A stretch of DNA of 64,000 nucleotides, from positions 2,756,001 through 2,820,000 of the forward strand of contig NC_011365.1 in NCBI RefSeq assembly GCF_000021325.1, in the 5' to 3' direction. The translations under genes were made by a program, and so were the position numbers. The notes under the pieces are model-generated. The model made no database searches. It was not told the origin of the DNA and was given only the letters and a program-made list of their open reading frames with translations. The DNA comes from Gluconacetobacter diazotrophicus PA1 5. Its GTDB lineage: Bacteria > Pseudomonadota > Alphaproteobacteria > Acetobacterales > Acetobacteraceae. Shown here one piece after another: positions 4,185 through 18,943 of the stretch. Position 1 is the first letter of the stretch. Each line of letters begins with the position of its first letter.

Positions 4185-5177
4185 ATGAATTCTCTTGCCG
4201 ATATCTATTCCTCCCATCCCCGGGCGCTCGACCCCGTAAAGGCCGATGCCGGCAGCGTGGCCGAGGCCGATTTCAAGGCCCGTCACTGGTCCAGCCCCGT
4301 GCCCGGCCCGCTGAAGGCCGGCACCGCCGAGCACAAGCGCGCGGTCGCGCAGATGTTCCGCGAGACGTTCAATCCGTACAAGCCCTCGGTCATCGCGTGG
4401 CCCAAGCTGGACCCCGAGACGCTGAAGCGCGTGACCTCGCTGCCGATCTGGGACATCGCGGTGCAGACCGAAGGCAAGGCCCGCCTGCGCATGGCGGCCT
4501 ATGCGAACATGCTCAGCGACCCGGACATTAAGGACGCGATGTCCCTGAATGCGTGGGAGGAGAACCGGCACAAGGAAGTCCTGTCAAAGCTGGTCGAGGC
4601 CTACGACATCAAGATGGCGCCGGAACCCCCCTACGTCGAGCCGACCGACGTGGAATGGGCCTATATGGTCACGGGTTTTTCGGAATGCGTCGACAGCTTC
4701 TTCGCGTTCGGCCTGTTCGCGCTGGCGCGGAAGTCCGGCTTCTTCCCCCCCGAACTGGTCGAGACGTTCGAGCCGGTGATGCAGGAGGAAGCCCGCCATA
4801 TCATCCTGTTCGCCAACTGGCTGACCTACCATCGCGCGACGCTGCCGCTGTGGAAGCGCCCGTGGTTCGAACTGCGCGTGCTGGCGGTCTGGGCGTTCCT
4901 GGTCTACGAACGGCTGGACCTGGTGCGCACCATGGACGGTGACGGCAACGTGCATGAACAGGACAACAACTTCGCCGTGACCGGCGTCAAGGACGTTTCC
5001 AGCATCGATATCAGCCTGCGCGACCTGATGGGCGTGTGCCTGGAAGAGAACGAGCGCCGACTGGCCGGCTACGACCCGCGCCTGGCGCGGCCGAAGCTGG
5101 CGCCGAACATTGCGCGGTTCATCCGCTTCGTGCTGCCCAAGGCCTCCCGCAACGCGCAGGTCGGGCACGCTGCTTGA
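4185..5177 (+). CDS. Ferritin-like di-iron protein, copy 1
   Basis: 330 residues, mostly helical. Two carboxylate/His clusters typical of ferritin-like di-iron enzymes are visible: WEENRH (124-129) and EEARH (201-205), with an additional Glu in QTEGKAR (94-100) and SECVDSFF (167-174). This suggests an oxygen-activating di-iron centre (oxidase, oxygenase or decarbonylase type); the substrate cannot be read from sequence. The C-terminal third adds helices with aromatic residues that could lie against a membrane. The gene overlaps the next one, its paralogue, with the stop TGA lying inside TTGA. The pair follows the ClpP-like gene. Confidence 0.75.
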   Translation: MNSLADIYSSHPRALDPVKADAGSVAEADFKARHWSSPVPGPLKAGTAEHKRAVAQMFRETFNPYKPSVIAWPKLDPETLKRVTSLPIWDIAVQTEGKARLRMAAYANMLSDPDIKDAMSLNAWEENRHKEVLSKLVEAYDIKMAPEPPYVEPTDVEWAYMVTGFSECVDSFFAFGLFALARKSGFFPPELVETFEPVMQEEARHIILFANWLTYHRATLPLWKRPWFELRVLAVWAFLVYERLDLVRTMDGDGNVHEQDNNFAVTGVKDVSSIDISLRDLMGVCLEENERRLAGYDPRLARPKLAPNIARFIRFVLPKASRNAQVGHAA

Positions 5178-6037
5178 GCCACGTCGAAGCGGGGTCGGAA
5201 GCCCATAAGGACCTGTTCTGCCGTCAGTTCGTCGCCACCCATCAGGTTTTCGACCCCGAAACCCTGCCGTGGCCCGACCTGACGGACGAGGAACTGGCGC
5301 GCCTGCGCACCATCCCCTTCTGGCAGGAGGTGTACCACACCGAACGCCGGGCGGGGGCGATCGTGGATGCCTTCACCCCGCAGATCGACGACCCCGTGGT
5401 GCGCGAGGCCGTGGCCCTGCAGGGGCTGGAGGAAGCGCGCCACGCGGCGCTGATCCGCACGATGATCGACCGCTACGGCATCGACGCGACCGAACAGCCG
5501 ATCGAGACGTTTCCCGCCGACCTGGAAACCGCGTTCATCGATTTCGGCTTTGGCGAATGCCTGGACGCGTTCCTGGGATTCGGCGCCTTCAAAAACGCGC
5601 GCCAGTCGCAGTTCCTGCCGGAAAAGCTGTTCGAGATCTTCGACGTGCTGATGTTCGAGGAAACGCGGCACATCGTCTTCTTCATCAATTACATGGCGTG
5701 GCGCGAGCGGCGGCGCGGGCTGGGCCCGGTGCGCCGCGCGCTGAAATCCACGCGCTTCTACGGCCGCGCGCTGGGGCGGCTGCTGGCCATGGTGCGGCGC
5801 GGGCAGCAGCCCAATGACGGCCGCGATTTCGCGGTGACGCAGGCCAACGTCTTCGTGGACGATTTCTCGTTCCGGCAGTTCGTCGAGGATTGCTATCGCG
5901 AAAACGCGCGACGGATGAAGGAATTCGACCCGGACCTGATGCAGCCCCGCCTGCTGCCCGCCATGGCCGACCTAGCCCTGCGCGGCATGCGCCTGTGGGA
6001 CCGCAGGCGCCCGCATCTGCGCACCTCCGCACGGTAG
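5174..6037 (+). CDS. Ferritin-like di-iron protein, copy 2 (TTG start, translationally coupled)
   Basis: 287 residues, clearly a paralogue of the upstream gene. It shares the LEEARH (85-90) and FEETRH (161-166) clusters, the GFGECLDAFLGFGAF helix (125-139) and a similar C-terminal EENxRR-type segment (RENARRMKEFD). The start is a TTG at 5174 that overlaps the upstream TGA (TTGA). The nearest in-frame ATG lies upstream, deep inside the other gene, and the next one downstream would remove the first metal cluster, so TTG is the only start that keeps the fold. Overlap suggests stoichiometric co-expression, possibly as a heterodimeric di-iron enzyme. Substrate unknown. Confidence 0.72.
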   Translation: MSHVEAGSEAHKDLFCRQFVATHQVFDPETLPWPDLTDEELARLRTIPFWQEVYHTERRAGAIVDAFTPQIDDPVVREAVALQGLEEARHAALIRTMIDRYGIDATEQPIETFPADLETAFIDFGFGECLDAFLGFGAFKNARQSQFLPEKLFEIFDVLMFEETRHIVFFINYMAWRERRRGLGPVRRALKSTRFYGRALGRLLAMVRRGQQPNDGRDFAVTQANVFVDDFSFRQFVEDCYRENARRMKEFDPDLMQPRLLPAMADLALRGMRLWDRRRPHLRTSAR

Positions 6038-6122
6038 AACCTTCACGCGACAGACCATTCGCGGATGGGGCTGGAACTCTGCCACGCCGCCGGTGTTTCG
6101 GCTGGCAGCGGGAGGGCGTGCC

Positions 6123-6380
6123 ATGGCCGACCAACATCCAAAACCTGATGACGGAATCTTCCCCGATCCCGATATCCCGCCCCCTTTTCCGCCGCCCGGC
6201 GAGGAAGAGGACGAGGATGAAGACGACGAGGATGAAGACGAGGATGGCACCGGCGACGGCGCCGAGCCCCGGCCGCCGCTGATCAGGACAAGGGCGTTCC
6301 TTTTTGAAAGGAAGAACCGAAAAACGTTCGACCGGTTCAGGGATTTCATGCTGGGCGCATACGAAGACGTGAACGAATAA
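6123..6380 (+). CDS. Small acidic protein whose C-terminus is encoded by an intergenic repeat
   Basis: 85 residues with a GGGAGGG ribosome site seven bases before the ATG. Residues about 10-25 are proline-rich, then a run of Glu/Asp (about 26-42) makes the protein extremely acidic. From about residue 58 the reading frame enters the left 122-bp repeat (6296-6416), so the basic tail LFERKNRKTFDRFRDF and the end GAYEDVNE are repeat-derived; the same peptide pattern is found, without a gene, in the right repeat copy. No recognised domain. It could be a genuine small protein that has captured repeat sequence, or a chance reading frame. Confidence 0.5.
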   Translation: MADQHPKPDDGIFPDPDIPPPFPPPGEEEDEDEDDEDEDEDGTGDGAEPRPPLIRTRAFLFERKNRKTFDRFRDFMLGAYEDVNE

Positions 6381-6416
6381 AAGTCTTTTTGCTTCTTTTT
6401 CTTCAGAAAAAGAAGG
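6296..6416 (+). repeat. Left copy of 122-bp hairpin-ended repeat
   Basis: Homologous over its whole length to the reverse complement of 7493-7614. Both ends are self-complementary: TTCCTTT / AAAGGAA at the outer end and CTTCTTTTTCT / AGAAAAAGAAG at the inner end. The innermost 36 bases are identical between the copies; the middle is about three-quarters identical. The pair faces inward around the MFS gene. Looks like a non-autonomous dispersed element or paired bidirectional terminators. Confidence 0.85.
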
Positions 6417-6425
6417 GAGACCCCC

Positions 6426-7490
6426 ATGACCGGTCACCAGGACGGGCGCCTCGTTTCGCGCCTGCGGGTCGCCATGTTCCTCCTGGTGGTCGGGCTGTAT
6501 TCCGCGTCATGGTCGCTGGGCTTCGTGCTGGCCTGCTGGGTGGTCGGGCGCGTCACCAGCGCGTTGGGGCCCTTTGCCACGTTTTCCACGCTCGCGGGCC
6601 TGTCCGGCCTGTCCGCCATGCTGCTGTGGTTCCTGCCGTTCAATGCGGTCTGGATCGGGCTGCGGATGGTAATCGGATTCTGCTTCGGCGGCCTGTCCGC
6701 CCTGGTCGAGGGATGGCTGATCGCGCGAACGGGCGCGAATGCCGCGTTTGCCAGTTACCTGGCCGTGGTGCTGGTGGCGTCGCTGGCCGGCACCCTCAGC
6801 CTCAACCTGCTCGATCCGCTGGGCGAGGCCCCCTTCGTGCTGACCAGCGCGGCCGTGCTGGCGTCGATCGTCCCGGTGTTCCTCGAGCGCGCGGCGCTGC
6901 CGCCGGCGCCGTTGGCGTTCCATGCGGAAATCGGGCGCGTGATCGCGCTCTCGCCGCTGGGCGCGTTCGGCTGCCTGGGCGCCGGGACGATCACCGGCGT
7001 GCTGGGCGGGCTCGGCCCCGTATTCGGCATGGTGGCGGGACTGGGCATGCACGGGACGACGCTGATGCTGGCCGCGAACACGCTGGGCGGTGCCGTGGCC
7101 AATACGCCGGTCAGCTTCCTGACCGCACGGATCGGCCGGCGCTGGCTGCTGACCGGGGTGGCCCTGCTGGGCGTCGCCGTGTGTATGCCGCTGGTTCTTG
7201 CGCCGCAATGGCCCCGCGCCGGGCTGATCCTGCTGCTGGGGGCGTTCGGCTTCGCGCAATATCCGCTGTACACTCTGTGCGTCGGCATCACCACCCTGCA
7301 GGCGCCCCACCGGCCGTCGGAACAGGTGGCCAGCGAAATGCTGCTGCTGTTCGGACTGGGAACCATCGCCGGTCCCATGATCGGCGGCCCGCTGCTGCAT
7401 CGCGGAATCGGCTGGATGTTCGGGTTCATTGCCGTGACGTTCCTTGCCATCGGCCTCGGCGCTGCCGCGTGTCGGAGGATTGCGCGGTGA
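6426..7490 (+). CDS. MFS transporter (YcaD-like), short at the N-terminus
   Basis: 354 residues, hydrophobic throughout, with the MFS loop after helix 2/3 (GVSFLTARIGRRW-type motif at PVSFLTARIGRRWL) and paired glycine-rich helices such as GLRMVIGFCFGG. It is about 40-50 residues shorter than usual: only one hydrophobic span (about 15-38) precedes the first cytoplasmic loop (VVGRVTSALG), where two helices are expected, so helix 1 may be missing or fused with helix 2. Substrate unknown. The ribosome site GGGAGA is contributed by the end of the left repeat, and the stop codon is two bases before the right repeat, so the gene is exactly boxed in by the inverted pair. Confidence 0.82.
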   Translation: MTGHQDGRLVSRLRVAMFLLVVGLYSASWSLGFVLACWVVGRVTSALGPFATFSTLAGLSGLSAMLLWFLPFNAVWIGLRMVIGFCFGGLSALVEGWLIARTGANAAFASYLAVVLVASLAGTLSLNLLDPLGEAPFVLTSAAVLASIVPVFLERAALPPAPLAFHAEIGRVIALSPLGAFGCLGAGTITGVLGGLGPVFGMVAGLGMHGTTLMLAANTLGGAVANTPVSFLTARIGRRWLLTGVALLGVAVCMPLVLAPQWPRAGLILLLGAFGFAQYPLYTLCVGITTLQAPHRPSEQVASEMLLLFGLGTIAGPMIGGPLLHRGIGWMFGFIAVTFLAIGLGAAACRRIAR

Positions 7491-7492
7491 AG

Positions 7493-7614
7493 CCTTCTTT
7501 TTCTGAAGAAAAAGAAGCAAAAAGACTTTGATTCGTTCCGGGTCCCGGTATGCACCCGGCACAAAACCCCTGAACAGACCAAAAGTTTTTTGGTTCTTTT
7601 TTTCAAAAAAGAAC
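7493..7614 (-). repeat. Right copy of 122-bp hairpin-ended repeat (inverted)
   Basis: Inverted partner of 6296-6416. Its outer end is a 10-bp A/T-rich stem GTTCTTTTTT / AAAAAAGAAC with a two-base loop and its inner end the 11-bp stem CTTCTTTTTCT / AGAAAAAGAAG. The copy follows the MFS stop directly and precedes the DUF885 gene, whose apparent open frame extends backwards through it without being coding. Confidence 0.85.
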
Positions 7615-7701
7615 AAACAACCCCCACCAGGGCACCCCTTCTTGCCAACACGTTCCCCCTTCGGCACGATCCTGCGGTCTGTCAACCGAAAGGGCACGTT
7701 C

Positions 7702-9459
7702 TTGAAAAGACTCCTCCTGGCCTCGATCGCCCTCTTTCCCGGCCTGGCGCACGCGGCCGAAGACCGGAACGCGTCCTTTCAGGCCCTGCTGGCGCAGCAA
7801 TGGGAATGGCAGTTGCGCGAGAGCCCGGAACTGGCGACGACCATCGGGGACGACCGCTATAATGATCGCTGGTCCGACATGTCGCTGGCCCATGTCGCGG
7901 TTCAGGACCGCGCGCTGAAGGACTTCCAGACGCGGTTCACGGCCTTCGGAACGGCGGGATTGTCGGAACAGAACCGCCTCAGCCGCCAGATGATGCTCCA
8001 GCAACTGGCGATCGACCGGGAGGCGATCCGGCTGAAGATTTATGAAATGCCGATCGACCAGATCAATGGGGTGCCGTTGCAACTGGCTGGTTTCGTGTCC
8101 AGCATTCCGTTCGATTCCGTCAGACACTATCAGGATTACATCGCCCGCCTGCACGCCATTCCGGCGGTCCTGCAGGCGGTGGTCGACAGCGCGCGGGCCG
8201 GCATGGCGGACCATCTGATGCCGCCGCGCTTCCTGCTGGAAAAGGCGATTCCGCAATTGCGCGGCATCGCGTCCCCGGCCGGGACGGACAATGTGTTCGG
8301 ACAGCCGGCCCTGCATTTTCCGGCGACGATTCCGGCGGACCAGCAGGCGGCGCTGCGGGCGCAGATCATCGCCGCCGTCGATCGCGAGGTCCGCCCGGCG
8401 TTCGAGAAGACGGCCGATTTCGTCGAAAAGGACTACGCGCCGCACGGCCGGGCGCAGGACGGGATCTGGGCGCTGCCCGACGGGACCGCGCGCTATCGCT
8501 TCGCCATCCGCCAGCAGACCACCAGCACCATGACCCCCGCCGCGATCCACGCCCTGGGCCTGGCCGAAGTCGCGCGGATCGAAAAGCAGATGACCGATGT
8601 CGCGCACCGGCTGGGCTTCGCGGACCTCGCGGCGCTACGGGCGTCGGTCCAGACCGACCATAAGCTGTTCGCGACCTCGCGCGAGGAAATCCTGGACCGC
8701 TACCGCACCTATATCGCCGGAATGCGGCCCGAACTGCCCAGGCTGTTCGGCACGCTGCCCAAGGCGGACGTGAAGGTGCAGGCGGTCGAAACCTACCGCG
8801 AGGCCGAGGCGCCGGACGCCGAATACCACCAGGGTACGCCCGACGGGTCGCGCCCCGGCATCGTGTTCGTCAATACCGGGGATTTCGCGCATCGCGACCT
8901 GTACACGATCGAGGACACCGCCTATCACGAGGGCATTCCCGGCCACCATCTGCAGATCGCCCTGGCCCAGACCCTGCCCCTGCCGCCTTTCCGCCAGCAG
9001 GGCAGCTATAATTCCTATGTCGAGGGATGGGCGCTGTACGCGGAACGGCTGGCGAAGGATTACGGGTTCTACAAGGACGCCTATAACGAATATGGCTGGC
9101 TGAACGGCGAACTGCTGCGCGCCGACCGGCTGGTTCTGGATACCGGCGTGCACTATCTGCACTGGACGCGCCCGCAGATGATCGCGTTCTTCCGCGCCCA
9201 TCCATCGGAAAGCGAACCCGGCATGCAGGCCGAAACCGACCGCTACATCGCCTGGCCAGGCCAGGCGCTGGGCTACAAGCTGGGCCAACTCGAAATCCTG
9301 GATCTTCGCGCCAGGGCGCAGAAAGCGCTGGGCCCCAAATTCGATATCCGCGCCTTCCACGACGAAATCCTGGGCGGCGGCGCACTGCCGCTGGACATGC
9401 TGGACCAGCGAGTTACGCAATGGATCGCGGCCCAACGCGCCGCCCTGAAGCCGTCATGA
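7702..9459 (+). CDS. Secreted DUF885 family protein (putative metallopeptidase-like)
   Basis: 585 residues starting at TTG 7702, chosen because it directly begins a signal peptide (KRLLLASIALFPGLAHA, cleavage before AED) and is preceded by GAAAGGG. The in-frame ATG at 7528 would add translation of the intergenic repeat and is rejected. DUF885 hallmarks are present: HEGIPGHH (409-416), YVEGWALYAERL after it, and the C-terminal PGQALGYKLGQLEI. The HExxxGH arrangement suggests a zinc-dependent hydrolase; the family has no well-established substrate. Predicted to be periplasmic. Free-standing gene. Confidence 0.88.
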   Translation: MKRLLLASIALFPGLAHAAEDRNASFQALLAQQWEWQLRESPELATTIGDDRYNDRWSDMSLAHVAVQDRALKDFQTRFTAFGTAGLSEQNRLSRQMMLQQLAIDREAIRLKIYEMPIDQINGVPLQLAGFVSSIPFDSVRHYQDYIARLHAIPAVLQAVVDSARAGMADHLMPPRFLLEKAIPQLRGIASPAGTDNVFGQPALHFPATIPADQQAALRAQIIAAVDREVRPAFEKTADFVEKDYAPHGRAQDGIWALPDGTARYRFAIRQQTTSTMTPAAIHALGLAEVARIEKQMTDVAHRLGFADLAALRASVQTDHKLFATSREEILDRYRTYIAGMRPELPRLFGTLPKADVKVQAVETYREAEAPDAEYHQGTPDGSRPGIVFVNTGDFAHRDLYTIEDTAYHEGIPGHHLQIALAQTLPLPPFRQQGSYNSYVEGWALYAERLAKDYGFYKDAYNEYGWLNGELLRADRLVLDTGVHYLHWTRPQMIAFFRAHPSESEPGMQAETDRYIAWPGQALGYKLGQLEILDLRARAQKALGPKFDIRAFHDEILGGGALPLDMLDQRVTQWIAAQRAALKPS

Positions 9460-9578
9460 TTGGCGAAAACGCCGAAAGACCGCCGGCAGCCCATGTCCTG
9501 GAAGCGGACACTTACGCGAAGGATGTGGGCGTGTCATGGTTGTGTTCCGGACCTTTACCACAGACTATATGGTTATGA
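9460..9578. other. Gene-free start of the insertion scar
   Basis: No gene is visible between the DUF885 stop and the OrfA remnant. Together with 9579-10106 and 11426-11758 it forms a degraded zone around an IS element. Confidence 0.5.
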
Positions 9579-9830
9579 AGGGGAACTGGAATAGGACGTG
9601 TTTACAAGGCGGAGTTCAGACGTGAAGCTGTGTGTCTGACTCTAAGCAGCGATCTGTCGCGTGAGCGGATTGCTAAGAATGTGGGTATTGGCACTTCGAC
9701 ACCGACGAAATGGGTCCGGGATGCCTTGCGCCATGAGCCTGTGATGGCTGATGGCGCGCATCACAGAGCATTATCGTGTGAGAGTGAAATCCGCGTTGTC
9801 CGGGCAGGACGGTTCAGGGTGACGACACAC
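9579..9830 (+). pseudogene. Remnant of an IS3-family OrfA transposase
   Basis: From 9597 the frame reads RVYKAEFRREAVCLTLSSDL and then SRERIAKNVGIGTSTPTKWV, which is the helix-turn-helix of IS3-type OrfA proteins. There is no start codon (a TGA precedes the homologous segment at 9576) and similarity fades after about 9720, with no leucine-zipper tail and no OrfB. It is unrelated in sequence to the OrfA at 11051-11377, so it is the trace of a second, older element. Confidence 0.6.
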
Positions 9831-9858
9831 AGCACGATACCTGCCGCTTCGCTATTCT

Positions 9859-10106
9859 TCAAGGAAATTCTATCAGAATATTGTCAGCGAATGTGTTTCG
9901 ACGTCTATTTTGTGCAGGCGGTGATGCAGTTATTGATCCTTTTGCCTCGAGAGATTTCAAGGCGTCCTTGTAATTGCTGCGCAAGTATCTTTTTCCGACG
10001 TGATGGCGCTCGAATACATCGATCATTTTCAAGGTCATTCCGGAGAAGGTTTCGAGCAGCATTTTCTCGAGTTCATCAAGCGGACGCGCCAGATCGAACA
10101 GGAGAG
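9859..10106 (-). pseudogene. C-terminal fragment of a TcmP-like (three-Cys-motif partner) protein
   Basis: About 82 residues remain, from LLFDLARPLDELEKM to the stop. The end, with RYLRSNYKDALKSLEAKGSI then NRRRNTFADNILIEFP, resembles the C-terminal winged-helix-like tail of three-Cys-motif partner proteins. The frame is open into the IS left end at 10107, where host sequence stops; no continuation of the gene is found on the other side of the IS. Thus the N-terminal majority has been lost. Family assignment by memory of the pattern, so moderate. Confidence 0.5.
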
Positions 10107-10145
10107 TGAAGCGTCCCGGGTTTCCCGGAGGCCATTTGGTTTGAG

Positions 10146-11054
10146 TCACGCAGCCATATCGATGATCTCGAGGGCTGCATAGTAGTTGGCTTCGGCCTCG
10201 GCGGGTGGGATATAGCCGATGGGGCCAAAGAGGCGATGGTTATTGAACCAATCGACCCAGCGCAATGTTGCCATTTCCACGGCCGATACGGTCGGCCAGG
10301 AAGGCTGCCGCCAGATGACCTCGGCCTTGTAGAGGCCGTTGATGGTCTCGGCCAGGGCATTGTCATAGGAGTCCCCGACGCTGCCGACCGAGGGTACCAG
10401 ATCGGCCTCGGCCAGGCGCTGGGTGTAATTCATGGCGAGGTATTGGACGCCCCTGTCACTATGGTGGATCAAGCCATCCTCGGGTCCGGGCCTGCGGGCA
10501 TGGATCGCCTGCTCCAGGGCGTCCAGCACGAAGCCGGCGGTGGCTGACGTGCTGACCTTCCAGCCGACGATGCGCCGGGCATAGGCGTCGATCACGAAGG
10601 CGACATAGACGAAGCCGGCCCATGTGTGGACGTAGGTGAAATCGACCACCCACAGGGCATTCGGCCGGCTCAAGCGGAATGCGCGGTTCACCTTGTCCAG
10701 CGGGCACGGAGCCTTGGGATTGCTGATGGTCGTGACCGTCCTCTTCCCTCGCCGAATGCCGGCTAGGCCCATGGCACGCATCAGGCGTTCCACGGTGCAT
10801 TTGGCCACCTCAATGCCTTCACGGCGCATCTGATGCCAGACTTTGCGCGTCCCGTAGAGCTTTGAACTGGCGTCATATACCCGCTTGATCTCGTCCTTCA
10901 GTTCGTCGTCGCGCCGGGCACGCGCAGGCCGCCTGGCGGGGTCCGCCAGACGGACAGCATGTTCGTGATAGGAGGATGGGGCAATCGCCAGTTCGCGGCA
11001 GATCGGCTCGATACCCAAGTCCTCGCGATGGGCGTCGATGAACGCCATCATCAT
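10146..11054 (-). CDS. IS3-family transposase OrfB (DDE integrase domain)
   Basis: 302 residues as an independent reading frame. The DDE catalytic triad lies in [22 protein letters not shown] and [12 protein letters not shown], with an HTH_21-like N-terminal segment ([20 protein letters not shown]). Its ATG at 11054 overlaps the orfA stop within ATGATGATG, so it may be made by frameshifting into an OrfAB fusion or by restart. All catalytic residues are present and there is no internal stop, so the element is potentially active. Confidence 0.92.
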
Positions 11055-11377
11055 TTCCCGCGGCGGTCGAGCTCCGCCATCGCAAAATACGCCGATGCCT
11101 TGCGCAGGATCTCGTTGGCGCGGCGCAACTCCTTGACCTCGCGCTCAAGTTCCTTGAGCCGAACGCGTTCGTCACCAGCTTGCCCCGCCGGTCCCGCTCG
11201 CCGCCTGGCCTCATCGCGGCACCAGCGGCGCAAGGTCTCCGCCGTGCAACCGATCTTGGCAGCAATCGATGTCATCGCAGCCCATTCCGACCCGTAATCG
11301 GCCCGATGCTCCCCAACCATACGGACCGCACGCTCACGGACCTCAGGCGAAAATCTCTGGCTCATCGTGTTCATCAT
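11051..11377 (-). CDS. IS3-family transposase OrfA
   Basis: 108 residues. An N-terminal helix-turn-helix ([15 protein letters not shown] ... [15 protein letters not shown]) is followed by a leucine-zipper-like coiled coil ([19 protein letters not shown]) ending in [12 protein letters not shown], the classic OrfA layout for binding the terminal repeats and dimerising with OrfB. It ends in GGGAAATGA, immediately overlapping orfB. Confidence 0.92.
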
Positions 11378-11425
11378 AGCTCCTTCTCACAGATAGGAGC
11401 CTCCGCGAAACCCGGGACGCTTCAG

Positions 11426-11758
11426 GTCCTGCGTGAAACGTGATCTCTTCATGGCCTGTCTCCGGTTGGACAGACCTTACTCAAAAACGAGGGCATTCCA
11501 CGGGGCAGGGTCACGACTTTTCCGGTGCAGTGTCATGCTTCCGTGCCGGCTCGTTGCGCATGGCATCGTCCGTCTTACGGTGGGTCCGGGATGGAATTCA
11601 GGCTTCGCCGCTGGGGCGCTCCGGCGGGAGGCAACGCCGTATTAATCGCGGCTTCGTTATGCATGGGTGGTCGGGGACGTATCTTGACTTGCCTTGTCCT
11701 CGGAGTGCCAGAAACATTATGTTAAATATGACTCTAACGGACGAGAAGGATATCAGCT
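11426..11758. other. Gene-free stretch right of the IS
   Basis: 333 bases without a supported gene. It does not continue the TcmP-like frame truncated at the left IS end. The last 80 bases become AT-richer and probably hold the promoter of the YfdX gene; a TTGACT lies near 11682, but no well-spaced -10 could be fixed. Confidence 0.4.
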
Positions 11759-12457
11759 ATGCGAAATGTTGCCACGCTGGCGGTCGTCGCCGCCCTGGGC
11801 TTCGCGCCCTCGCTGTCGCAGGCGGCGTCGCTTCATGCGACGTGGGAGAAGTTCAAGGCCGAGCGCGCGCTCCATCATCTCTCCCATGACGGGGAGCAGG
11901 CCCTGACCGATATCGTGACGGCTCGGCAGCTTGTCGCGCAGGGAAAAGTCGATCAGGCGGTGCCGCCGCTCTATGACGCGCAGAAGCGCCTGGAAGCGGC
12001 GCGTAAGGCCGAAAAGCGCTACAATGTGGCGGAAAGCGCGCTTCAGCCTGCTCCGCAGCATCCGCTGCCGTCGAACCATCCGGTGACGAGCACGCCGATC
12101 GACTGGGTTCCGGTCGGCGGCGCGTTTATCGCCAGCGATATTCTGTCACCTGAAAAGAAGGCCGCGGTCGCCAAGGCCAACGATCAGTTGAAGGCCGGCG
12201 ACAGCAAGGGCGCCGCCCAGACGATGCAGGTCGTTGGCGAGGATGTCGATTTCATTGTCGCGCTGGCGCCGTTGGATCAGACCGAGGGTGCGGTCAACCG
12301 GGCGACAGTGTTCGTTGAGGGACGCCAGCCGGCCCAGGCGGCCGAGGCGCTGGATCAGGCCCTGAACGGGCTTGTCTTCGTGTCGCAGGATTTTATCGAG
12401 ACCCTGGCCCCGGCTGCCCCGGCTGCCCCGGCGAAACCGACGCAGCAGAAGAAATGA
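11759..12457 (+). CDS. YfdX family periplasmic protein
   Basis: 232 residues with a clear signal peptide ending SQA. The mature part is helical, with the family pattern HLSHDGEQALTDIVTARQLV near the start, repeated helix pairs around DAQKRLEAARKAEKRY, and VEGRQPAQAAEALDQALNGL near the end. It closes with an Ala/Pro-rich tail. In enterobacteria YfdX is under the EvgA acid-stress regulator, and acetic acid bacteria often have copies; an acid-tolerance role here is inference. GAGAAGGAT precedes the ATG. Convergent with the NCS1 permease. Confidence 0.85.
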   Translation: MRNVATLAVVAALGFAPSLSQAASLHATWEKFKAERALHHLSHDGEQALTDIVTARQLVAQGKVDQAVPPLYDAQKRLEAARKAEKRYNVAESALQPAPQHPLPSNHPVTSTPIDWVPVGGAFIASDILSPEKKAAVAKANDQLKAGDSKGAAQTMQVVGEDVDFIVALAPLDQTEGAVNRATVFVEGRQPAQAAEALDQALNGLVFVSQDFIETLAPAAPAAPAKPTQQKK

Positions 12458-12486
12458 TGATCATCGTAGTCTGATGTGATCATGCC

Positions 12487-12518
12487 CCTCTTCACAGGTC
12501 ATTCGGTCTGTGAAGAGG
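12487..12518. terminator. Stem-loop between convergent genes
   Basis: A perfect 11-bp stem CCTCTTCACAG / CTGTGAAGAGG with a ten-base loop lies over the last codons of the permease, 30 bases after the yfdX stop. A second weaker palindrome (ATGATCA / TGATCAT) is at about 12457-12484. No T-run in either direction, so termination efficiency is unclear. Confidence 0.4.
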
Positions 12519-13931
12519 ATGGCGGTTGAAGCCGGTGTATAGCAGTGCGCCCGTCGCAATGCCCAGGAACCAGGATACCGCGTTGATGGCATCCTGCCCC
12601 GGGAGGGTGCCGGCCGGCAGCAGGGCGGGGGGCAGCAGCAGCAGCAGGGTCAGGCCGGTAGCCGCCAGGGCGGACGGGCGCCAGCCCCGCCGGCCCGCAT
12701 AGAGGCCGGAGAATGAGTAGAGCTGCGCGAGGTCGATCGTCTGGCGGCGGACCAGATAGTAGTCGGCCAGCATGATCCCGGTGATGGGTGCCAGCACCGC
12801 CGAAAGCAGGCCGAGCAAGGCGAAGACCGTCTGCGGATGGTCGAACCACAGCCAGGGGGCGACGAACAGGCCGAGCAGGATGACCGTGATGCACGCGCGG
12901 TCGAAATCGAGCCGGCGGGGGAACAGGCTGAGCAGGTCGTAGGCGGCGGGGACGATGTTGCCGGCGACGTTGACTGACAGGGCCGCGACGATGATCGTGA
13001 TGCCGCCGGCGAGCGTAAGCGGTGTGTTGTGGATCCGCATCAGGATTTCGACCGGGTTCCAGATCGGTTTTCCGAACATCACCAGGGTGGCCGAGGTGAT
13101 GAGAATGCTCATGGGCGTGAAGATGACGGCGGTGACCGGCAGGCCGATGAGCTGGCCAATGGCCTGGTCGCGCTGCGAGTGGACGAAGCGGCTGAGGTCG
13201 GGGATGTTGACCGCGAACGATGCCCATATGCCGATGATGCTGGTGACGGCGGCCCCGCCCTTGAGGAACAGGGCCGACCCGTGCAGCGTGGACGGGATGG
13301 CGAAGAGTGGGCCGGTGCCGTGGCAGATCCTGATGGCCCAGAGGGCGGCGGCGCCGGCGACGACAAGGACCAGCGGGCCGGCGACCAGTTCGAAATTGCG
13401 GATGCGGTGTATGCCACGGGCGGCGACGAGGGCGTGCAGGCCCCAGATCATCGCCACCGCCAGCCAGGGGCCGAGCGCCGTGCCGTCGGGAAGGTGCAGG
13501 CTGCTCCAGTCCGGCCACAGGCTGGCGGCGATGGCGTCGAGCGCCTGCGAGGCCGCATAGGACTGGACCGAGAACCAGAAGATGGCGACCACGGCGCGGA
13601 TGGCGACGGGGATGACGGCGCCGCGCGGGCCGAAGGCGGCGCGGATCAGGACGCAGAAGGGAATGCCCCATTCGGTGCCCGCGCGGGCATTGAACCACAT
13701 GGCGACGAACAGCGAGCAATAGGCCGTCCAGACGATGAGCAGGCACTGCATGGCGGAGAAGCCGATGGCCATGAGGCCGGCTGCGGCCTCGTAGGCGACC
13801 ACGTTATGGACCATGCCCATCCAGACGGCGGCGAGGGTGATCCATGTCCAGTCCCGTTTCTGCCGGGGCAGGGGGGCGATGTCGGGATTCCACAGCAGGG
13901 GGTCGCGGGCGGTCTGGGTCGTGTCCAGCAT
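12492..13931 (-). CDS. NCS1 family nucleobase:cation symporter
   Basis: 479 residues from the ATG at 13931, which has GGAAAAG upstream; the longer in-frame start at 14033 adds a non-conserved segment. About 12 membrane helices. NCS1 markers include KRDWTWITLAAVWMGMVHNV at the first helix, GIWASFAVNIPDLSRF in the middle (the NCS1 N-P-D signature) and GIMLADYYLVRR near helix 10. The family imports cytosine, purines, uracil, hydantoin, allantoin or thiamine with Na+ or H+. Together with the amidohydrolase and receptor upstream it suggests uptake of a deaminable heterocycle, cytosine being the simplest candidate. Confidence 0.9.
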   Translation of the reverse strand: MLDTTQTARDPLLWNPDIAPLPRQKRDWTWITLAAVWMGMVHNVVAYEAAAGLMAIGFSAMQCLLIVWTAYCSLFVAMWFNARAGTEWGIPFCVLIRAAFGPRGAVIPVAIRAVVAIFWFSVQSYAASQALDAIAASLWPDWSSLHLPDGTALGPWLAVAMIWGLHALVAARGIHRIRNFELVAGPLVLVVAGAAALWAIRICHGTGPLFAIPSTLHGSALFLKGGAAVTSIIGIWASFAVNIPDLSRFVHSQRDQAIGQLIGLPVTAVIFTPMSILITSATLVMFGKPIWNPVEILMRIHNTPLTLAGGITIIVAALSVNVAGNIVPAAYDLLSLFPRRLDFDRACITVILLGLFVAPWLWFDHPQTVFALLGLLSAVLAPITGIMLADYYLVRRQTIDLAQLYSFSGLYAGRRGWRPSALAATGLTLLLLLPPALLPAGTLPGQDAINAVSWFLGIATGALLYTGFNRHPLHRPNDL

Positions 13932-13959
13932 GGGATCTTTTCCGGTTGGGCCCTGCGCT

Positions 13960-13983
13960 GGAGCCATCCGACCGGATGGCTCC
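13960..13983. other. Stem-loop in the lysR-permease gap
   Basis: A perfect 10-bp stem GGAGCCATCC / GGATGGCTCC with a GACC loop lies 29 bases before the permease ATG (minus strand). It could be an operator, an attenuator or a terminator for lysR. No T-run follows. Confidence 0.4.
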
Positions 13984-14063
13984 ATACGGTCGGACAGGGA
14001 TGCTCGCCAGGGCACCGATCCGGGGGGGGGCATGTCCGCGAACCGGTGGGAATGGATAGGCCT

Positions 14064-14939
14064 CTAGTTCTTGCGGCGGGTGGTGCGGGGGGTGATCTGC
14101 CGGGAATGGGCGGCGATGGTGTCGGCCAGCGCCTTGACGGGGCCTTCCAGCGCTTCGGTCTTGCCGATGACGATGAAATCGACATCGGCCGTTTCGGGCA
14201 GGTTTTCGGTGACGGGCAGCGACCGGTCGTACTGGCGCAGGAACGAGGATTGCGCGGTGACGCCGTAGCCGGCGCGGACGGCGGCCAGCAGGGCGGTCAG
14301 GTTTTCGGAGGTGAAGGCGACGTACCAGGGGATTTCCGCCGCGTTGAGGCATTCCAGCGCGAGCTGGCGGGTGATGGCCGGTTCGGGGAACACGACGAGG
14401 GGCAGGGCGGTGCCGGGTTCCCAGTTGCCGAACCAGGTCAGCGGTTCGCGCCAGATGGTGGTGCCGCGTGCGTCACCGATTCGGCGCTTGGTGCAGAGTA
14501 GGTCGACCGAGCCGGTATCGAGATCGTTCTGCAGCGAGCCGCTGAGGCCGACGCGCAGATGGACATCGACCTTGGGATATTTCTCGCGGAAGATGCCCAG
14601 GATTTCCGGCAGCCGGGTCATCGTCAGGTCTTCTGAGATGCCGAGGCGGATATAGCCGCGGATGACCGAGCGGTCGAACCAGGTCAGCGCCCGGTCCTGC
14701 GCCGAGAGGATGTCACGGGCCAGCGCGATCATCATGTGGCCGTCCTGCGTCAGGGTGACCTGCTTGGTGCTGCGGACCAGCAGGGTGCGGTTGACTGCCT
14801 GTTCCAGGCGGCTGACATGCTGGCTGACGGTGGACTGGACAATGCCGAGACGCCGGGCGGCGGAGGTGAAATGCAGCGTTTCCGCCACCGCCAGAAAGGA
14901 GCGGAGTTGCTGGGGGTCGAGGTCTCGGGCGTCTTCCAT
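14064..14939 (-). CDS. LysR-type transcriptional regulator
   Basis: 291 residues. The N-terminal winged helix-turn-helix is typical: QQLRSFLAVAETLHFTSAAR, then VQSTVSQHVSRLEQ, followed by a dimerisation helix and a periplasmic-binding-like effector domain (about 90-285). It sits 14 bases after the amidohydrolase stop and upstream of the permease on the same strand, so unlike most LysR genes it is inside the operon it presumably controls rather than divergent from it. The effector is probably the imported nucleobase or a breakdown product (inference). Confidence 0.92.
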   Translation of the reverse strand: MEDARDLDPQQLRSFLAVAETLHFTSAARRLGIVQSTVSQHVSRLEQAVNRTLLVRSTKQVTLTQDGHMMIALARDILSAQDRALTWFDRSVIRGYIRLGISEDLTMTRLPEILGIFREKYPKVDVHLRVGLSGSLQNDLDTGSVDLLCTKRRIGDARGTTIWREPLTWFGNWEPGTALPLVVFPEPAITRQLALECLNAAEIPWYVAFTSENLTALLAAVRAGYGVTAQSSFLRQYDRSLPVTENLPETADVDFIVIGKTEALEGPVKALADTIAAHSRQITPRTTRRKN

Positions 14940-14953
14940 GATGGATTCCTGTT

Positions 14954-16153
14954 TCAGAATGAGGCCTTCATTTCAGGACGATGACGGACGAAGGTCCAGA
15001 CCCCGGCTTTCCACCCGCCGAGGACGGGGCGCAGTTCGCGCACCGCCGTTGCCGGGTCCGGGGCGTCGATCAGGACGATATCGGCGGGGGCGCCTTCGGT
15101 GATCGCCGCGGGTACGCCCAGTGACGAGGCGGGGGACGTGGTCAGCATGTCCCAGATCAGGGCCAGGTCGGCATCGGTCGTGGCGCCCGTGATGTTGGCG
15201 AACAGGTTGCCCATGCGCAGCAGGTTGCCGTCGCCGAACGGGGTGAAGGGGTTGACGATGTTGTTGGTGGCCAGCGCGCAGCGCCCGCCCATGCGGGCAT
15301 AGCGCATCAGCGGGGCCATGCTGCCGCGCATGAGAAACAGGTCGGTGGCGGGCAGGGCCGTCAGCATGATGTCGGCCGCCAGCAGGCCGTCCAGAATGGC
15401 GGTCTGCTCGTCGGTCGGCAGGATGGACAGCTTGGTGGCGTGGCCGATGACGACGCGGCCCCGATAGCCGGTTTCCAGGACGTGGCGGATCAGGAAGGGC
15501 AGGGCGCTGGCAGTGGGGTCGAGGTCGAAATCGATGTGGAAATCGGCGTCGCAGTCGTGCCGGGCGGCCAGGGCGAGGATACGGCGGATCTGTTCCTGCG
15601 GGTCCGGGTCGGTATAGGGGCAGCCGCCGATGCTGCGGGCGCCCAGGCGCAGGGCTTCCTCCAGCAGGGCTTCGCCGTCCGCATGCTGGGTCAGGCCGTC
15701 CTGGGCGAAGGCGCACAGGCGCAGGTCGATGGCGTGGCGGGCTTCCTCCGCCAGGGCCAGCAGGCCTTCCAGGCTGCGCAGACCGGCGGCGTGATCGACC
15801 TCGACGAAGCTCTGCATGACCGTGGTGCCGTGGGTGATGGCATCGCGTAGCACGCGGGCGCCGCGATCGTGCACGTCCTGCACCGTGAAGGTGGCCTTGA
15901 GTTCGGTGATCTTGCGGATGGCGGCGGCAAGGCTGGCGTCCTCGGTCCCGCAGCGATGCAGGGTGGCGGCCTTGTCGAGATGGATGTGGCTTTCGACGAA
16001 GCCGGGGAATGCCAGGCAGCCGCCGCCGTCATGCTCGACGGCGGCGGTGCGGGGGATGTCGGGGTGCAGGGCGGTGATGCGCCCCGCGGTGACGCCGATA
16101 TCGAGCGGCGCGGCGTGGGGGGTAAGGCGGACGTTCCGGATAATCAGGTCCAT
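14954..16153 (-). CDS. Amidohydrolase of the cytosine deaminase (CodA) type
   Basis: 399 residues from the ATG at 16153. Cytosine-deaminase-like metal and catalytic motifs can be followed: SHIHLDKA (first two His ligands in HxH form), DFHIDFDLDP (third region), VIGHATKLS (fourth His) and LATNNIVNPFTPFGDGNLL, where the metal-binding Asp is replaced by Asn in TNNI and Asp lies a few residues later. HLDK is characteristic of CodA and related N-alkylammelide hydrolases. The likely reaction is hydrolytic deamination of a pyrimidine or triazine ring; exact substrate unknown. Same strand as the TonB receptor (80-base gap), LysR and permease. Confidence 0.85.
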   Translation of the reverse strand: MDLIIRNVRLTPHAAPLDIGVTAGRITALHPDIPRTAAVEHDGGGCLAFPGFVESHIHLDKAATLHRCGTEDASLAAAIRKITELKATFTVQDVHDRGARVLRDAITHGTTVMQSFVEVDHAAGLRSLEGLLALAEEARHAIDLRLCAFAQDGLTQHADGEALLEEALRLGARSIGGCPYTDPDPQEQIRRILALAARHDCDADFHIDFDLDPTASALPFLIRHVLETGYRGRVVIGHATKLSILPTDEQTAILDGLLAADIMLTALPATDLFLMRGSMAPLMRYARMGGRCALATNNIVNPFTPFGDGNLLRMGNLFANITGATTDADLALIWDMLTTSPASSLGVPAAITEGAPADIVLIDAPDPATAVRELRPVLGGWKAGVWTFVRHRPEMKASF

Positions 16154-16233
16154 GAGGTGCGATAGCCTGTTTTCATTCTTCTTTGTTTTGACCCGATTGC
16201 CCGGGCCAGGAGGGCGTTCTTGCGAGTGTCCTC

Positions 16234-18582
16234 CTAGAATTCGGTCGAAAGCTGGGCGGCGACGGTGAAGCCCGCGCCGATGATATAGGTCGGCGCACCG
16301 GCGGCGTCGATGATGGTGCCGTTGACGCCGCGTGTGGACCGCGCGTTGGGCAGGACGGAACCCAGGCCGGCCAGGTAGTGCGTATTCCATAGATTGACGA
16401 AATTGAGCTGGAATTTCGGATGCTTGATGTAACGGTAGGACGGTAGGTAGACGCCGATCGTCATGTCGCCATGGGTCTGGGCGGCCATTTTTTCATCGTT
16501 CATGAAAGTGGAGTATTGGGATGAGAGATATTTGAGGCCAAAATTTCCGAAAAACAGGGAATCGTCATAGGACAGACCGAAGGATGCCTGGAAGCGCGGG
16601 CTTTGCACGGCTGTCTTGCCCTTGGTTGGCAGGTAGTCGTTTCCGACCCTGAAATCGTTGTCGATCGTGGTGTGCAGATATTCGAACGAGGCGTAGGGGC
16701 TGAAATGCATGAAGGGAACCGTGCCGAGTTCGATATCGACGCCGCGCGAGGTCTGCCCGCCCTCGTTGATCGTGGTGGAGACGGGCAGGTTGCCGACATA
16801 GGTCTGCGTGGCGATCTGCCGGTTGGTGAAGTTATAGTTGAAGAAGGTGACGCTGCCGAGGACCTGGCGGCCCTGGTAGCGGTAGCCGATTTCCTCGGCG
16901 ATGGAGTATTCGTCCTTCTGCTGCCCGGCGCCCAGCGATGTGACCTGCCCGGTGGCGGGACTGGTGCTGCCGAAGAAACTGGTGCCCAACGGCGCGCGGA
17001 AACCGGTGGTGACGTTGAAGAACAGCTGATGTTCGTGGTTGAAGTCGTAACGGACCATCAGGCGCGGCAGCGGCTGGAAACTGTTGTCGTGGATGCGGTA
17101 TTCGGTGCCCGGAATGTGGTTGGTGCCGACGCGGTCGACCATGACGGCCTTTATGCCGCCGGTGATCTGCAGATGATCATGCAGCAGGCTGAGCCGGTCG
17201 TTGAGGAAGATGCCGTTGACCTGCGTCATGAGGTTGTAGTCGCCCGAGCGCAGCGGGCGGCCGTTGGCCATCATGACCGTGGGATCGGTGCCGCGCGGGC
17301 CCTGGGGCGCGCCGCTGGCCGTGACGGGCGTGTAGTCGATCCAGTTGGAGAAATCGTCATATTCGTACCAGTTTCCCAGCGTCAGGGTGTTTTTTCCCTG
17401 CGTCCAGTTGAGCTTTTCGACGAAGCCGGTACGGTAAGGGGAGTTGAGGTATCGCTGGACGGCCGGAGCCTGGCCGCCGCTGGCGCCGGGAAGGGTGGAG
17501 CCCGGGGATTCGAACTGGTTGCCCCAGTAATAGCCGCCCGTGGGCAGGGTTGTGCCGCTGAGAGCGCCACCGGAGCCGTGAAAGAAATAGGGCTCGACAT
17601 CCGCCGTGAGGTTTCTGGCCAGGCGGAAGGTCGAGGGAAGGCCGATATTGAAATCTTCCCACGGGTTCTGGTACATCCGCCAGTAGGCCGAGTTGGCGGC
17701 GGGGGATCCGCCCTGGATGTAGGTGGGGCTGTAATAGTTGGACCGTCCGGTGGCGTTCCACTGTGCGAGCGTGGGTTCGTAGTAATTGGAAATCGTCTGG
17801 TGCGCCCAGGTGAAGACGGCCGCGACGCGGTTTCCCTGCCCCCATTCCTTCAGGAATTTCGCGTCGATGTGCAGGCGGCGGTCGGTGCCCGGGCCGGTGA
17901 AGTGCTGGTCGTAGAAATCGGAAAAGGACATCCAGCCCCGGATGCCGGTATGGCCGATATCGCCGGTATTGATACGGATGAATTCTTTCTTGGCATCCCA
18001 CGTGCCGAACATGGAGGATGCGTAGCCGCCGAACTGATGCGACGGGTCGATGGTCTTGAAGCTGACCTGACCGCCGAGATCGACATAGCTGGGGGTGTCG
18101 ATGGGTGACGAGCCCTGGGTGATCGACGCGCTTTGCAGGTTTTCGGAATCGATGAGCTGCGACGGGTAGATGGTGCCGTTATTGGGATCGTTTTGCGGCG
18201 TGCCATCGACCATGAAGCCGATTTCCTGCTGGTTCAGGCCGCGCAGGGTCATGGTGACCTGATTGCTCATGCCGAAGGCGTCGGACGTTGCGACGTTGGC
18301 ACCGGGCATGTTCTGCACCAGGTTCAGCGCGCCGGCGCTGGCCACCTGTTTGGTGATGTAGGCACGATCCACGGTACTGACCGAGGCTTCGGCATGGGTA
18401 CGGACCATCTGGCCGGAGCCCGATGCCTGCCGCAGGGTACGGACGACCGATATGGATTCGGACGGGGCTGCCGCCGGATGGGCTGCCGGATGGGTCTTGG
18501 GCTGCGTCGCGGCGACGGCGGAAATCGGGATGATCGAGACTGCGCAAAGAAGAAGGGAAACCCTGAAGGAAATCGGCTTCAT
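16234..18582 (-). CDS. TonB-dependent outer-membrane receptor
   Basis: 782 residues from the ATG at 18582, which follows AGGAA and starts a signal peptide ending AVAA. After a His/Pro-rich spacer comes a possible TonB box (ESISVV), then the plug domain (LNLVQNMPGANV, TMTLRGLNQQEIGFMVDG) and a long beta-barrel ending in a C-terminal aromatic (STEF). Receptors of this kind import siderophores, cobalamin, sugars or other scarce ligands. The genes behind it are a cytosine-deaminase-like enzyme, LysR and an NCS1 permease, not siderophore genes, hence the receptor may take up a nucleobase-like compound (inference). Confidence 0.9.
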   Translation of the reverse strand: MKPISFRVSLLLCAVSIIPISAVAATQPKTHPAAHPAAAPSESISVVRTLRQASGSGQMVRTHAEASVSTVDRAYITKQVASAGALNLVQNMPGANVATSDAFGMSNQVTMTLRGLNQQEIGFMVDGTPQNDPNNGTIYPSQLIDSENLQSASITQGSSPIDTPSYVDLGGQVSFKTIDPSHQFGGYASSMFGTWDAKKEFIRINTGDIGHTGIRGWMSFSDFYDQHFTGPGTDRRLHIDAKFLKEWGQGNRVAAVFTWAHQTISNYYEPTLAQWNATGRSNYYSPTYIQGGSPAANSAYWRMYQNPWEDFNIGLPSTFRLARNLTADVEPYFFHGSGGALSGTTLPTGGYYWGNQFESPGSTLPGASGGQAPAVQRYLNSPYRTGFVEKLNWTQGKNTLTLGNWYEYDDFSNWIDYTPVTASGAPQGPRGTDPTVMMANGRPLRSGDYNLMTQVNGIFLNDRLSLLHDHLQITGGIKAVMVDRVGTNHIPGTEYRIHDNSFQPLPRLMVRYDFNHEHQLFFNVTTGFRAPLGTSFFGSTSPATGQVTSLGAGQQKDEYSIAEEIGYRYQGRQVLGSVTFFNYNFTNRQIATQTYVGNLPVSTTINEGGQTSRGVDIELGTVPFMHFSPYASFEYLHTTIDNDFRVGNDYLPTKGKTAVQSPRFQASFGLSYDDSLFFGNFGLKYLSSQYSTFMNDEKMAAQTHGDMTIGVYLPSYRYIKHPKFQLNFVNLWNTHYLAGLGSVLPNARSTRGVNGTIIDAAGAPTYIIGAGFTVAAQLSTEF

Positions 18583-18943
18583 GCTTTTTTCATTCCTGTT
18601 TCGTATCATATTGGGCATCGCGCAGCGGCCCGTTTCCAGGCGCCATGGCGCAGCGGGAAGGATATGGACGGGCGTTTCAGGAGCCCGATCCAGCGTTGAA
18701 TAATTTCAATACGAAATCATATGTCACCCACTTATCGCGATGTCAAACTGATTCCGGGATGAGAATGTTCCTGATGGGGAATGTGCGATGGCGGGGCCGG
18801 ACGGGCGACGGCGCGCATACGGTTTTGCGTTCGCGCGGGGATGGATGCCGGCAGGCTGGCTTCTGCATTGATCCGGTGCGTGCCGGCGGAAGGTAGCGCC
18901 TTTGGGGCGTGACGCGGAGCGCGGGACTTGCCAAGATCGGGGA
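18583..18943. other. Divergent promoter region between TonB receptor and DUF2252
   Basis: 361 bases without a gene. It holds the promoter candidate for the receptor (separate entry); nothing definite was found for the DUF2252 side. Confidence 0.5.
18716..18746 (-). promoter_or_regulatory. Candidate sigma70 promoter for the TonB receptor locus
   Basis: On the minus strand TTGACA (18746-18741) is followed after 19 bases by TATGAT (18721-18716). The elements match consensus six of six and five of six, but the spacer is two bases longer than ideal. The leader would be about 130 bases. Confidence 0.45.

Follow-up and report, generated by a model that had tools for sequence, protein, structure and literature searches.

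A dispersed hairpin element adjacent to stop codons in Acetobacteraceae, with two facing copies around an MFS transporter gene of Gluconacetobacter diazotrophicus

Analysis of a 64,000-nucleotide stretch of the Gluconacetobacter diazotrophicus PA1 5 genome (hereafter, the window) together with related genomes revealed a family of dispersed repeats with conserved ends and a covarying center, which is spread among Acetobacteraceae, is mostly located adjacent to stop codons, and has sites that are occupied in some genomes and empty in others. The best reading of this element is that it is REPIN-like, non-autonomous, and mobile. The two inverted repeats that enclose an MFS transporter gene in the window are probably, though by no means certainly, separate copies of this dispersed non-autonomous mobile element of Acetobacteraceae, which would serve as a two-way terminator, and which would face each other here by coincidence.

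Structure and distribution of the repeat family

The unit is approximately 121 bp long and consists of a left-end hairpin (GTTCTTTTTTGAAAAAAAGAAC), an A-tract (CAAAAAAC), a self-complementary center that is variable in both sequence and length, a T-tract (GTCTTTTTG), and a right-end hairpin (CTTCTTTTTCTTCAGAAAAAGAAG). Its two ends are related as imperfect inverted repeats, yet they are consistently unlike each other, and the single strands of the element fold either as a three-hairpin clover or as one long hairpin. The left copy in the window has the left-end hairpin GTTCCTTTTTGAAAGGAAGAAC, the A-tract, a decayed center, the T-tract, and the right-end hairpin CTTCTTTTTCTTCAGAAAAAGAAG; its central hairpin is at the level of shuffled sequence (z-scores of −0.1 and −0.3), and the whole copy folded as single-stranded DNA has a z-score of −3.06. 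For the right copy, the corresponding value for the whole copy is −4.98, and that of the central hairpin is −2.3 on the element strand and −0.8 on the strand in the sense of the MFS gene.

Table 1. Positions of the two repeats and of the surrounding genes in the window, with the repeats as placed by the covariance model (cmsearch).
Feature	Position	Strand	Remarks
Left anchor gene, conserved	5174–6037	+	Present in 14/14 genus genomes; no Pfam match
Possible 85-aa gene	6123–6380	+	Home-made gene caller; last codons and stop inside the left copy; no match in the Pfam search
Left copy	6296–6415	+	cmsearch, 115.2 bits
MFS transporter gene, between the copies	6426–7490	+	354 aa; PF07690, E = 3.2e−8
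Right copy	7494–7614	−	cmsearch, 137 bits; right end 3 nt past the MFS stop codon
DUF885 gene, following the right copy	7702–9459	+	PF05960, E = 4.6e−168 (read from 7699)

The first-pass annotation, which was made from the letters of the window, had described two inverted repeats that box the MFS gene, and the covariance model recovered both of them in place. Their inverted pairing is 79% in the outer part (6296–6362 with 7548–7614) and 98% in the inner part (6371–6416 with 7493–7538). A 25-base hairpin motif gave four matches when up to three mismatches were allowed, namely, the two repeats on both strands, and 100 dinucleotide shuffles gave a mean of 0.00. The innermost bases of the two repeats are identical, as that annotation had noticed, over 37 bases rather than the 36 that it gave. 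However, because nine of the 10 good copies of this genome share the same 36-base inner end (the tenth has one base different), this identity is not special to the boxed pair. The right copy shares 85–89% identity with five other copies in the genome and 83% with the left copy. When the right repeat is taken to begin at 7493, as in the annotation, it does start two bases after the MFS gene, whose TGA (7488–7490) is followed by AG. The proposal that the left repeat supplies the ribosome-binding site of the MFS gene is only partly right, because the AAGGGAG motif that precedes the ATG at 6426 straddles the end of the repeat.

In this genome, a DNA search yielded 10 good full-length copies, including both window repeats, as well as half copies and lone end hairpins. 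The covariance model built from these 10 copies added two places, a diverged copy at 1306792 and a site at 334167 in which only the right half is recognizable. All 14 genomes of the genus had matches, from 1 (G002) to 102 (G003) when both strands were counted; because both strands of a copy usually give a match (63 copies yielded 126 matches, each copy being hit on the opposite strand as well, showing the terminal inverted repeats), the true number of places is approximately half of these counts. Within the family, matches were found in 96 of 299 genomes and 38 of 102 genera (E ≤ 0.01, each genome being limited to 12 scored candidates), and in the class, two of 385 genomes matched under stricter filters (E ≤ 1e−6), both from the same family. 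Only two of 72,556 plasmid records matched, both from Pseudoroseomonas cervicalis (Acetobacteraceae), and the phage and plasmid collections together gave one partial and two full matches. The exact right-end pattern also occurred in 15 stretches of IMG/VR contigs. An Rfam search of positions 5900–8000 gave four matches at E-values of up to 1, all under the gathering scores. The open-access literature, searched by topic and by sequence strings, contained no description of the element (one string occurred in one paper on an unrelated topic), and a term search of the paper on the G. diazotrophicus Pal5 genome (PMC2765452) gave no passage on such repeats.

Two further observations concern individual records. 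In another genus of the family (L101, minus strand from position 1500), three copies form a tandem array at intervals of approximately 148 nt with a shared spacer, the third copy being cut short, and this array recalls those described for REPIN clusters; L102 has a single copy. In the Microviridae record MG945182.1 (L313, positions 669–702), which is labeled UNVERIFIED, 34 bases are equal to the left end of the element, and this may be an artifact.

Position at gene ends, folding, and predicted termination

We examined the genes around 73 copies, comprising the 10 good copies of G. diazotrophicus and 63 of the best-scoring copies listed for three congeners (29 in G003, 28 in G001, and 6 in G005); these were obtained from 75 covariance-model matches after two opposite-strand duplicates were dropped, and the genes were called with a simple home-made caller. 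The neighboring genes were convergent in 34 cases, codirectional in 37, and divergent in 2. A stop codon was located within 15 nt of the edge (44 copies) or inside the element (14 copies) in 58 of the 73 copies, which are not independent of one another because G003, G001, and G005 have sites in common. As a background, 7.8% of the intergenic insertion points in the window are as near to stop codons, and 35% are in divergent gaps. Of the 34 copies between convergent genes, 17 had both stop codons within 15 nt. The same stop-codon proximity was seen in other genera, in 16 of 22 copies (from 24 loci in ten genera, with L101 and L102 excluded and the near-duplicate L088 retained), and two of these copies were between divergent genes. 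On plasmid NZ_CP115853.1, as annotated, the copy is 9 and 4 nt from the stop codons of two convergent genes; on NZ_CP115852.1, the copy is 6 nt from one stop codon, and the other neighboring gene starts there. In eight of the 73 copies, an open frame enters the right end and finishes with SFSEEKEAKRL and a stop codon, and in six of these it is the frame of the called gene. At the right copy in the window, the frame that leads into the right end differs from that of the MFS gene.

To compare lineages, we assembled 26 copies, of which 21 were from ten other genera (several of them sharing a genus), two from the plasmids, and three from G. diazotrophicus; L088, L101, and L102 were outside this set. 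The columns of the alignment were invariant in 29 of 30 positions at the left end and 32 of 37 at the right end, a near-invariance that is partly an artifact because the best-scoring hits were taken, and the center ranged from 34 to 108 bases. The native arms of the central stem had a folding energy of −18.24 kcal/mol versus −12.93 kcal/mol when the arms were swapped among copies, and none of 5,000 swaps was as good; the native partner outperformed the median swap in 19 of the 26 copies and every swap in eight. The same arm-swap test within the genus was negative (−16.71 versus −16.51, with 590 of 2,000 swaps as good), and was based on 69 of the 73 copies, as four without findable arm borders were left out of this test and of the central-hairpin test below. 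The covariation is therefore between lineages. The between-lineage test was run after the within-genus null result and after the plasmid copies were noticed to have another center. Longer versions of the element, with a center of approximately 140 nt, occur in L315 (4480–4683), L319 (4567–4769), and L327 (2352–2553), and have in common the conserved block TATGGATTTTTAGGAATACT or nearly so.

In the 69 usable copies, the mean z-score of the central hairpin was −3.3 on one strand and −3.4 on the other; 50 and 52 of these copies, respectively, had values below −2, and on either strand approximately 12 of the 16 nt after the hairpin are T. From the hairpin with its T-tract and from the 3′ position, the element is probably a bidirectional intrinsic terminator. 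This role is predicted to be weak in the two copies of the window, of which the left has a decayed center and the right is weak in the sense of the MFS gene, and a simple terminator scan called the central hairpin of neither copy. The suggestion in the first-pass annotation that the MFS gene may be insulated by two terminators is thus nearer to the probable role of the family, but is not well suited to this particular pair.

Occupied and empty sites and the region around the MFS gene

Comparisons with congeners revealed sites that are occupied in one genome and empty in another, as the first-pass annotation had proposed to look for. At L005, none of the 11 relatives with the site has the element, and the gene that ends in VVVDSSFSEEKEAKRL followed by a stop codon in G. 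diazotrophicus ends in VVVDSSPGEGMT and a stop codon in three relatives and otherwise in two (five of the 11 were translated); the insertion replaced the last codons of the gene. At L004, the element is situated between codirectional GNAT and 2-hydroxyacid dehydrogenase genes, and the gap between these genes is 14 nt in G009 and 10 nt in G006, which belong to different clades and are the only congeners aligned there. In a tree based on 3.2 kb, G. diazotrophicus is placed beside G006 and the element-rich clade, and G002, G008, and G009 come next (support of 83/84 for this fork). Because of this placement and the empty relatives, the copies at L005 and L004 look like gains in the lineage of G. 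diazotrophicus; at the other sites, either gain or loss could account for the differences.

Among these other sites, L010 has a copy between codirectional Y-family polymerase and DNA polymerase III alpha genes in G. diazotrophicus, and G002, G008, and G009 are without the element there. As the neighboring genes at L004 and L010 are codirectional and close, a terminator would be unwelcome at these places if they are co-transcribed. At L006, the copy of G. diazotrophicus begins 1 nt past the stop codon of the ketol-acid reductoisomerase gene; G003, G004, G005, G007, and G010 have a copy in the opposite orientation with a GC-rich hairpin in front of it, and G001, G002, G006, G008, G009, G011, and G012 have no element. 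A sequence at 1626–3086 of L006, 5 nt past the element, is multi-copy in G011 and G006 and has the look of an insertion sequence. The L003 site is occupied in G. diazotrophicus and, again behind a GC-rich hairpin, in G001, G003, G004, G005, G007, and G010, and the other six congeners are without the element. The neighbors of the G. diazotrophicus copy at L003 (position 2184525) are approximately 25–30 kb apart and on opposite strands in several congeners, and an inversion breakpoint at the element is likely. At L231, G003 carries the element and the two stop codons are, by our reading, 3 nt apart in G. diazotrophicus; loss is possible in G006, because four bases like the start of the element remain. 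L271 has a full copy in G001 and the right-end hairpin alone in G. diazotrophicus. The flanks gave no clear signal of a target-site duplication or of symmetry: the mean flank duplication score was 2.45 versus 2.18 after shuffling (120 of 2,000 shuffles as high), with exact edges that are uncertain.

The MFS gene itself, whose PF07690 score of 33.3 bits is just under the cut-off (33.4 bits), has no match in any of the 12 congeners, and its best relatives, at approximately 28–37% identity, belong partly to other genera of the family and partly to different families. The neighboring DUF885 gene has a full-length close match, apart from its own genome, only in the same-species genome among the 14, and no close relative in the 12 congeners (one match of 35% and one partial match of 32%); a synteny comparison of named genomes through the DUF885 protein covered seven loci, none in the genus. 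Synteny is lost directly after the anchor gene in all 12 congeners, and in G008, homology to the window returns at 19026, 167 nt past that gene. Since synteny ends before the left copy and DUF885 is also without a close relative, the local difference is much larger than the box. The same-species genome (G240) has the identical arrangement of the box, and therefore no empty site is known within the species.

It had been suggested that the MFS gene and its two repeats form a minimal composite element, in which the inverted copies carried the gene as a unit. The absence of the MFS gene from the 12 congeners is in keeping with this, as is the arrangement of the two copies, which face each other 1.1 kb apart as no other examined pair does. 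However, the repeats are not a private pair but a dispersed family with weaker and partial copies as well as good ones, present in every genome of the genus, and none of the 63 copies in congeners has a second copy within approximately 1.2 kb (E ≤ 0.001). Three regions of congeners do contain two copies, at distances of 2.0–2.7 kb and in the same orientation, and the closest inverted pair besides the box and its twin in G240 was approximately 5 kb apart (G007, C11) among the matches listed, as judged by eye. The loss of synteny ahead of the left copy, the similarly isolated DUF885 gene, the arrangement in G240, and the fact that five other copies resemble the right copy more closely than the left copy does all argue against a composite cassette, which we regard as highly improbable. 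The repeats thus occur independently of the gene, although no relative with the MFS gene and without repeats at this locus was found, because the 12 relatives do not have the gene; and the synteny comparison, from which a moving cassette was to be recognized, revealed that the gene is missing in these congeners but that the difference exceeds the box. Accordingly, the box looks like a chance neighborhood of two facing copies and not like a transposon.

Several features of this region are recorded as side observations. The part of the window that is absent after the anchor gene in G008 (6038–19025) contains genes for an rve transposase, YfdX, a cytosine/purine permease, LysR, an amidohydrolase, a TonB receptor, MFS, and DUF885. 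Just past the anchor gene, G011 (L129) has an insert of approximately 2.1 kb with inverted-repeat ends relative to G012 (L127); it is situated in the middle of an element, and G012 carries that (truncated) element without the insert. A tRNA search of the window found none.

Comparison with known systems and alternative explanations

The element shares features with several known systems. REPINs are described (PMC3116915) as intergenic inverted hairpin doublets in which the ends are most conserved, separated by a spacer, folding as a long hairpin or clover, and accompanied by lone hairpins. The present element is likewise a dispersed inverted hairpin doublet with conserved ends, a spacer, lone hairpins, and the array at L101. 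In contrast to the REPIN/RAYT system, its ends consistently differ, its end hairpins are A/T-rich, it is tightly linked to stop codons, and neither a GTAG or CGTC tag nor, in the genus, a Y1_Tnp gene was found. The Y1_Tnp domain (PF01797) was found in none of the 14 genomes of the genus (a control search was positive in five of 14 well-known genomes), and an origin through RAYT is therefore unsupported for the genus. The aligned ends and the flank profile, inspected by eye, show neither a GTAG nor a CGTC tag next to the palindrome; CGTC repeats are given as missing in Acetobacteraceae in PMC3733652. Hairpin doublets are normally tied to RAYT transposases, and here is a family of the same build in a genus in which no such enzyme was found.

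The ERIC sequences (IRU, RU-1), according to PMC2229807, are 127-bp dispersed repeats of enterobacteria with terminal inverted repeats and in-frame gene fusions; the element, compared by description, is similar in length, dispersal, terminal inverted repeats, and gene fusion, but occurs in another bacterial group and has no clear duplication signal. Terminal inverted repeats are also common to the element and to MITEs. As in intrinsic (Rho-independent) terminators, a hairpin with a T-rich tract is located 3′ of genes, and here on both strands; unlike them, the element recurs at unrelated loci as a copied unit whose ends are fixed, has extra end hairpins, and escapes a simple terminator scan. 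The REPs of Escherichia coli are similarly hairpin repeats within 15 nt of stop codons, although the figure in PMC12306157 is 446 of 4,072, compared with 58 of 73 for the element when stop codons inside it are counted.

As to mechanism, a trans-acting enzyme would recognize the two unlike hairpin ends, as was proposed for REPINs, and the element would favor the 3′ ends of genes as targets. The central hairpin and the T-rich tract on either strand would then provide a two-way intrinsic terminator and an mRNA 3′ end, and a copy that lands between two convergent genes or past a stop codon would be tolerated or even useful because of this proposed function. In the window, the left copy overlaps the 3′ end of the possible small gene, and the right copy follows the MFS gene. 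A more specific version of this reading, which we advance only tentatively, is that the family is a RAYT-independent hairpin element that acts as a mobile two-way terminator, is inserted specifically at stop codons or gene 3′ ends by an enzyme, and sometimes exchanges the native 3′ end together with the last codons; this version includes nearly fixed ends across ten other genera and a central stem that was re-evolved by lineage. If the element is a traveling terminator, a single step could alter gene 3′ ends along with the boundaries of transcripts and the tails of proteins (such as SFSEEKEAKRL), and because copy number differs so much among species of the genus, this idea is directly testable.

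Other explanations account for parts of these data. The family could be a purely selfish miniature element without a role in termination, whose position reflects target preference and tolerance. The copies between codirectional neighbors (L004 and L010), the GC-rich hairpins kept ahead of some copies, and the negative covariation test within the genus are consistent with this explanation, which is nevertheless somewhat doubtful in view of the covariation of the center between lineages and the hairpin with a T-tract on both strands; an enzyme that reads hairpins could, however, also require these features. Alternatively, the hairpins may regulate translation by slowing ribosomes when they are within 15 nt of a stop codon, as for the REPs of E. 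coli. Most of the 73 copies are at this distance, and the same distance rule appears for E. coli in PMC12306157; however, such regulation would affect just the preceding gene and would not on its own account for the two-sided design or the covarying center, and we consider it unlikely. Finally, the copies might be vertically inherited, immobile terminators that are alike through conversion. Sites shared by many congeners, such as L003 with six of 12 congeners in addition to G. diazotrophicus, would fit, and the lone hairpin of G. diazotrophicus at L271 could be a product of decay. This is very unlikely given that L004 and L005 are occupied in G. diazotrophicus and empty in relatives from both neighboring clades, and that the number of matches varies so widely inside one genus.

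Some copies in IMG/VR contigs are of an unusual form. At L326 (4126–4195) and L323 (4714–4781), the copies are inside out, with the left end a few bases after the right end, and at L326 the flanks pair on the outside as a long inverted repeat, as if the element had been circularly permuted. Under the tentative version of a mobile two-way terminator, such permuted copies, with the right end beside the left, would point to an intermediate that is circular or single-stranded.
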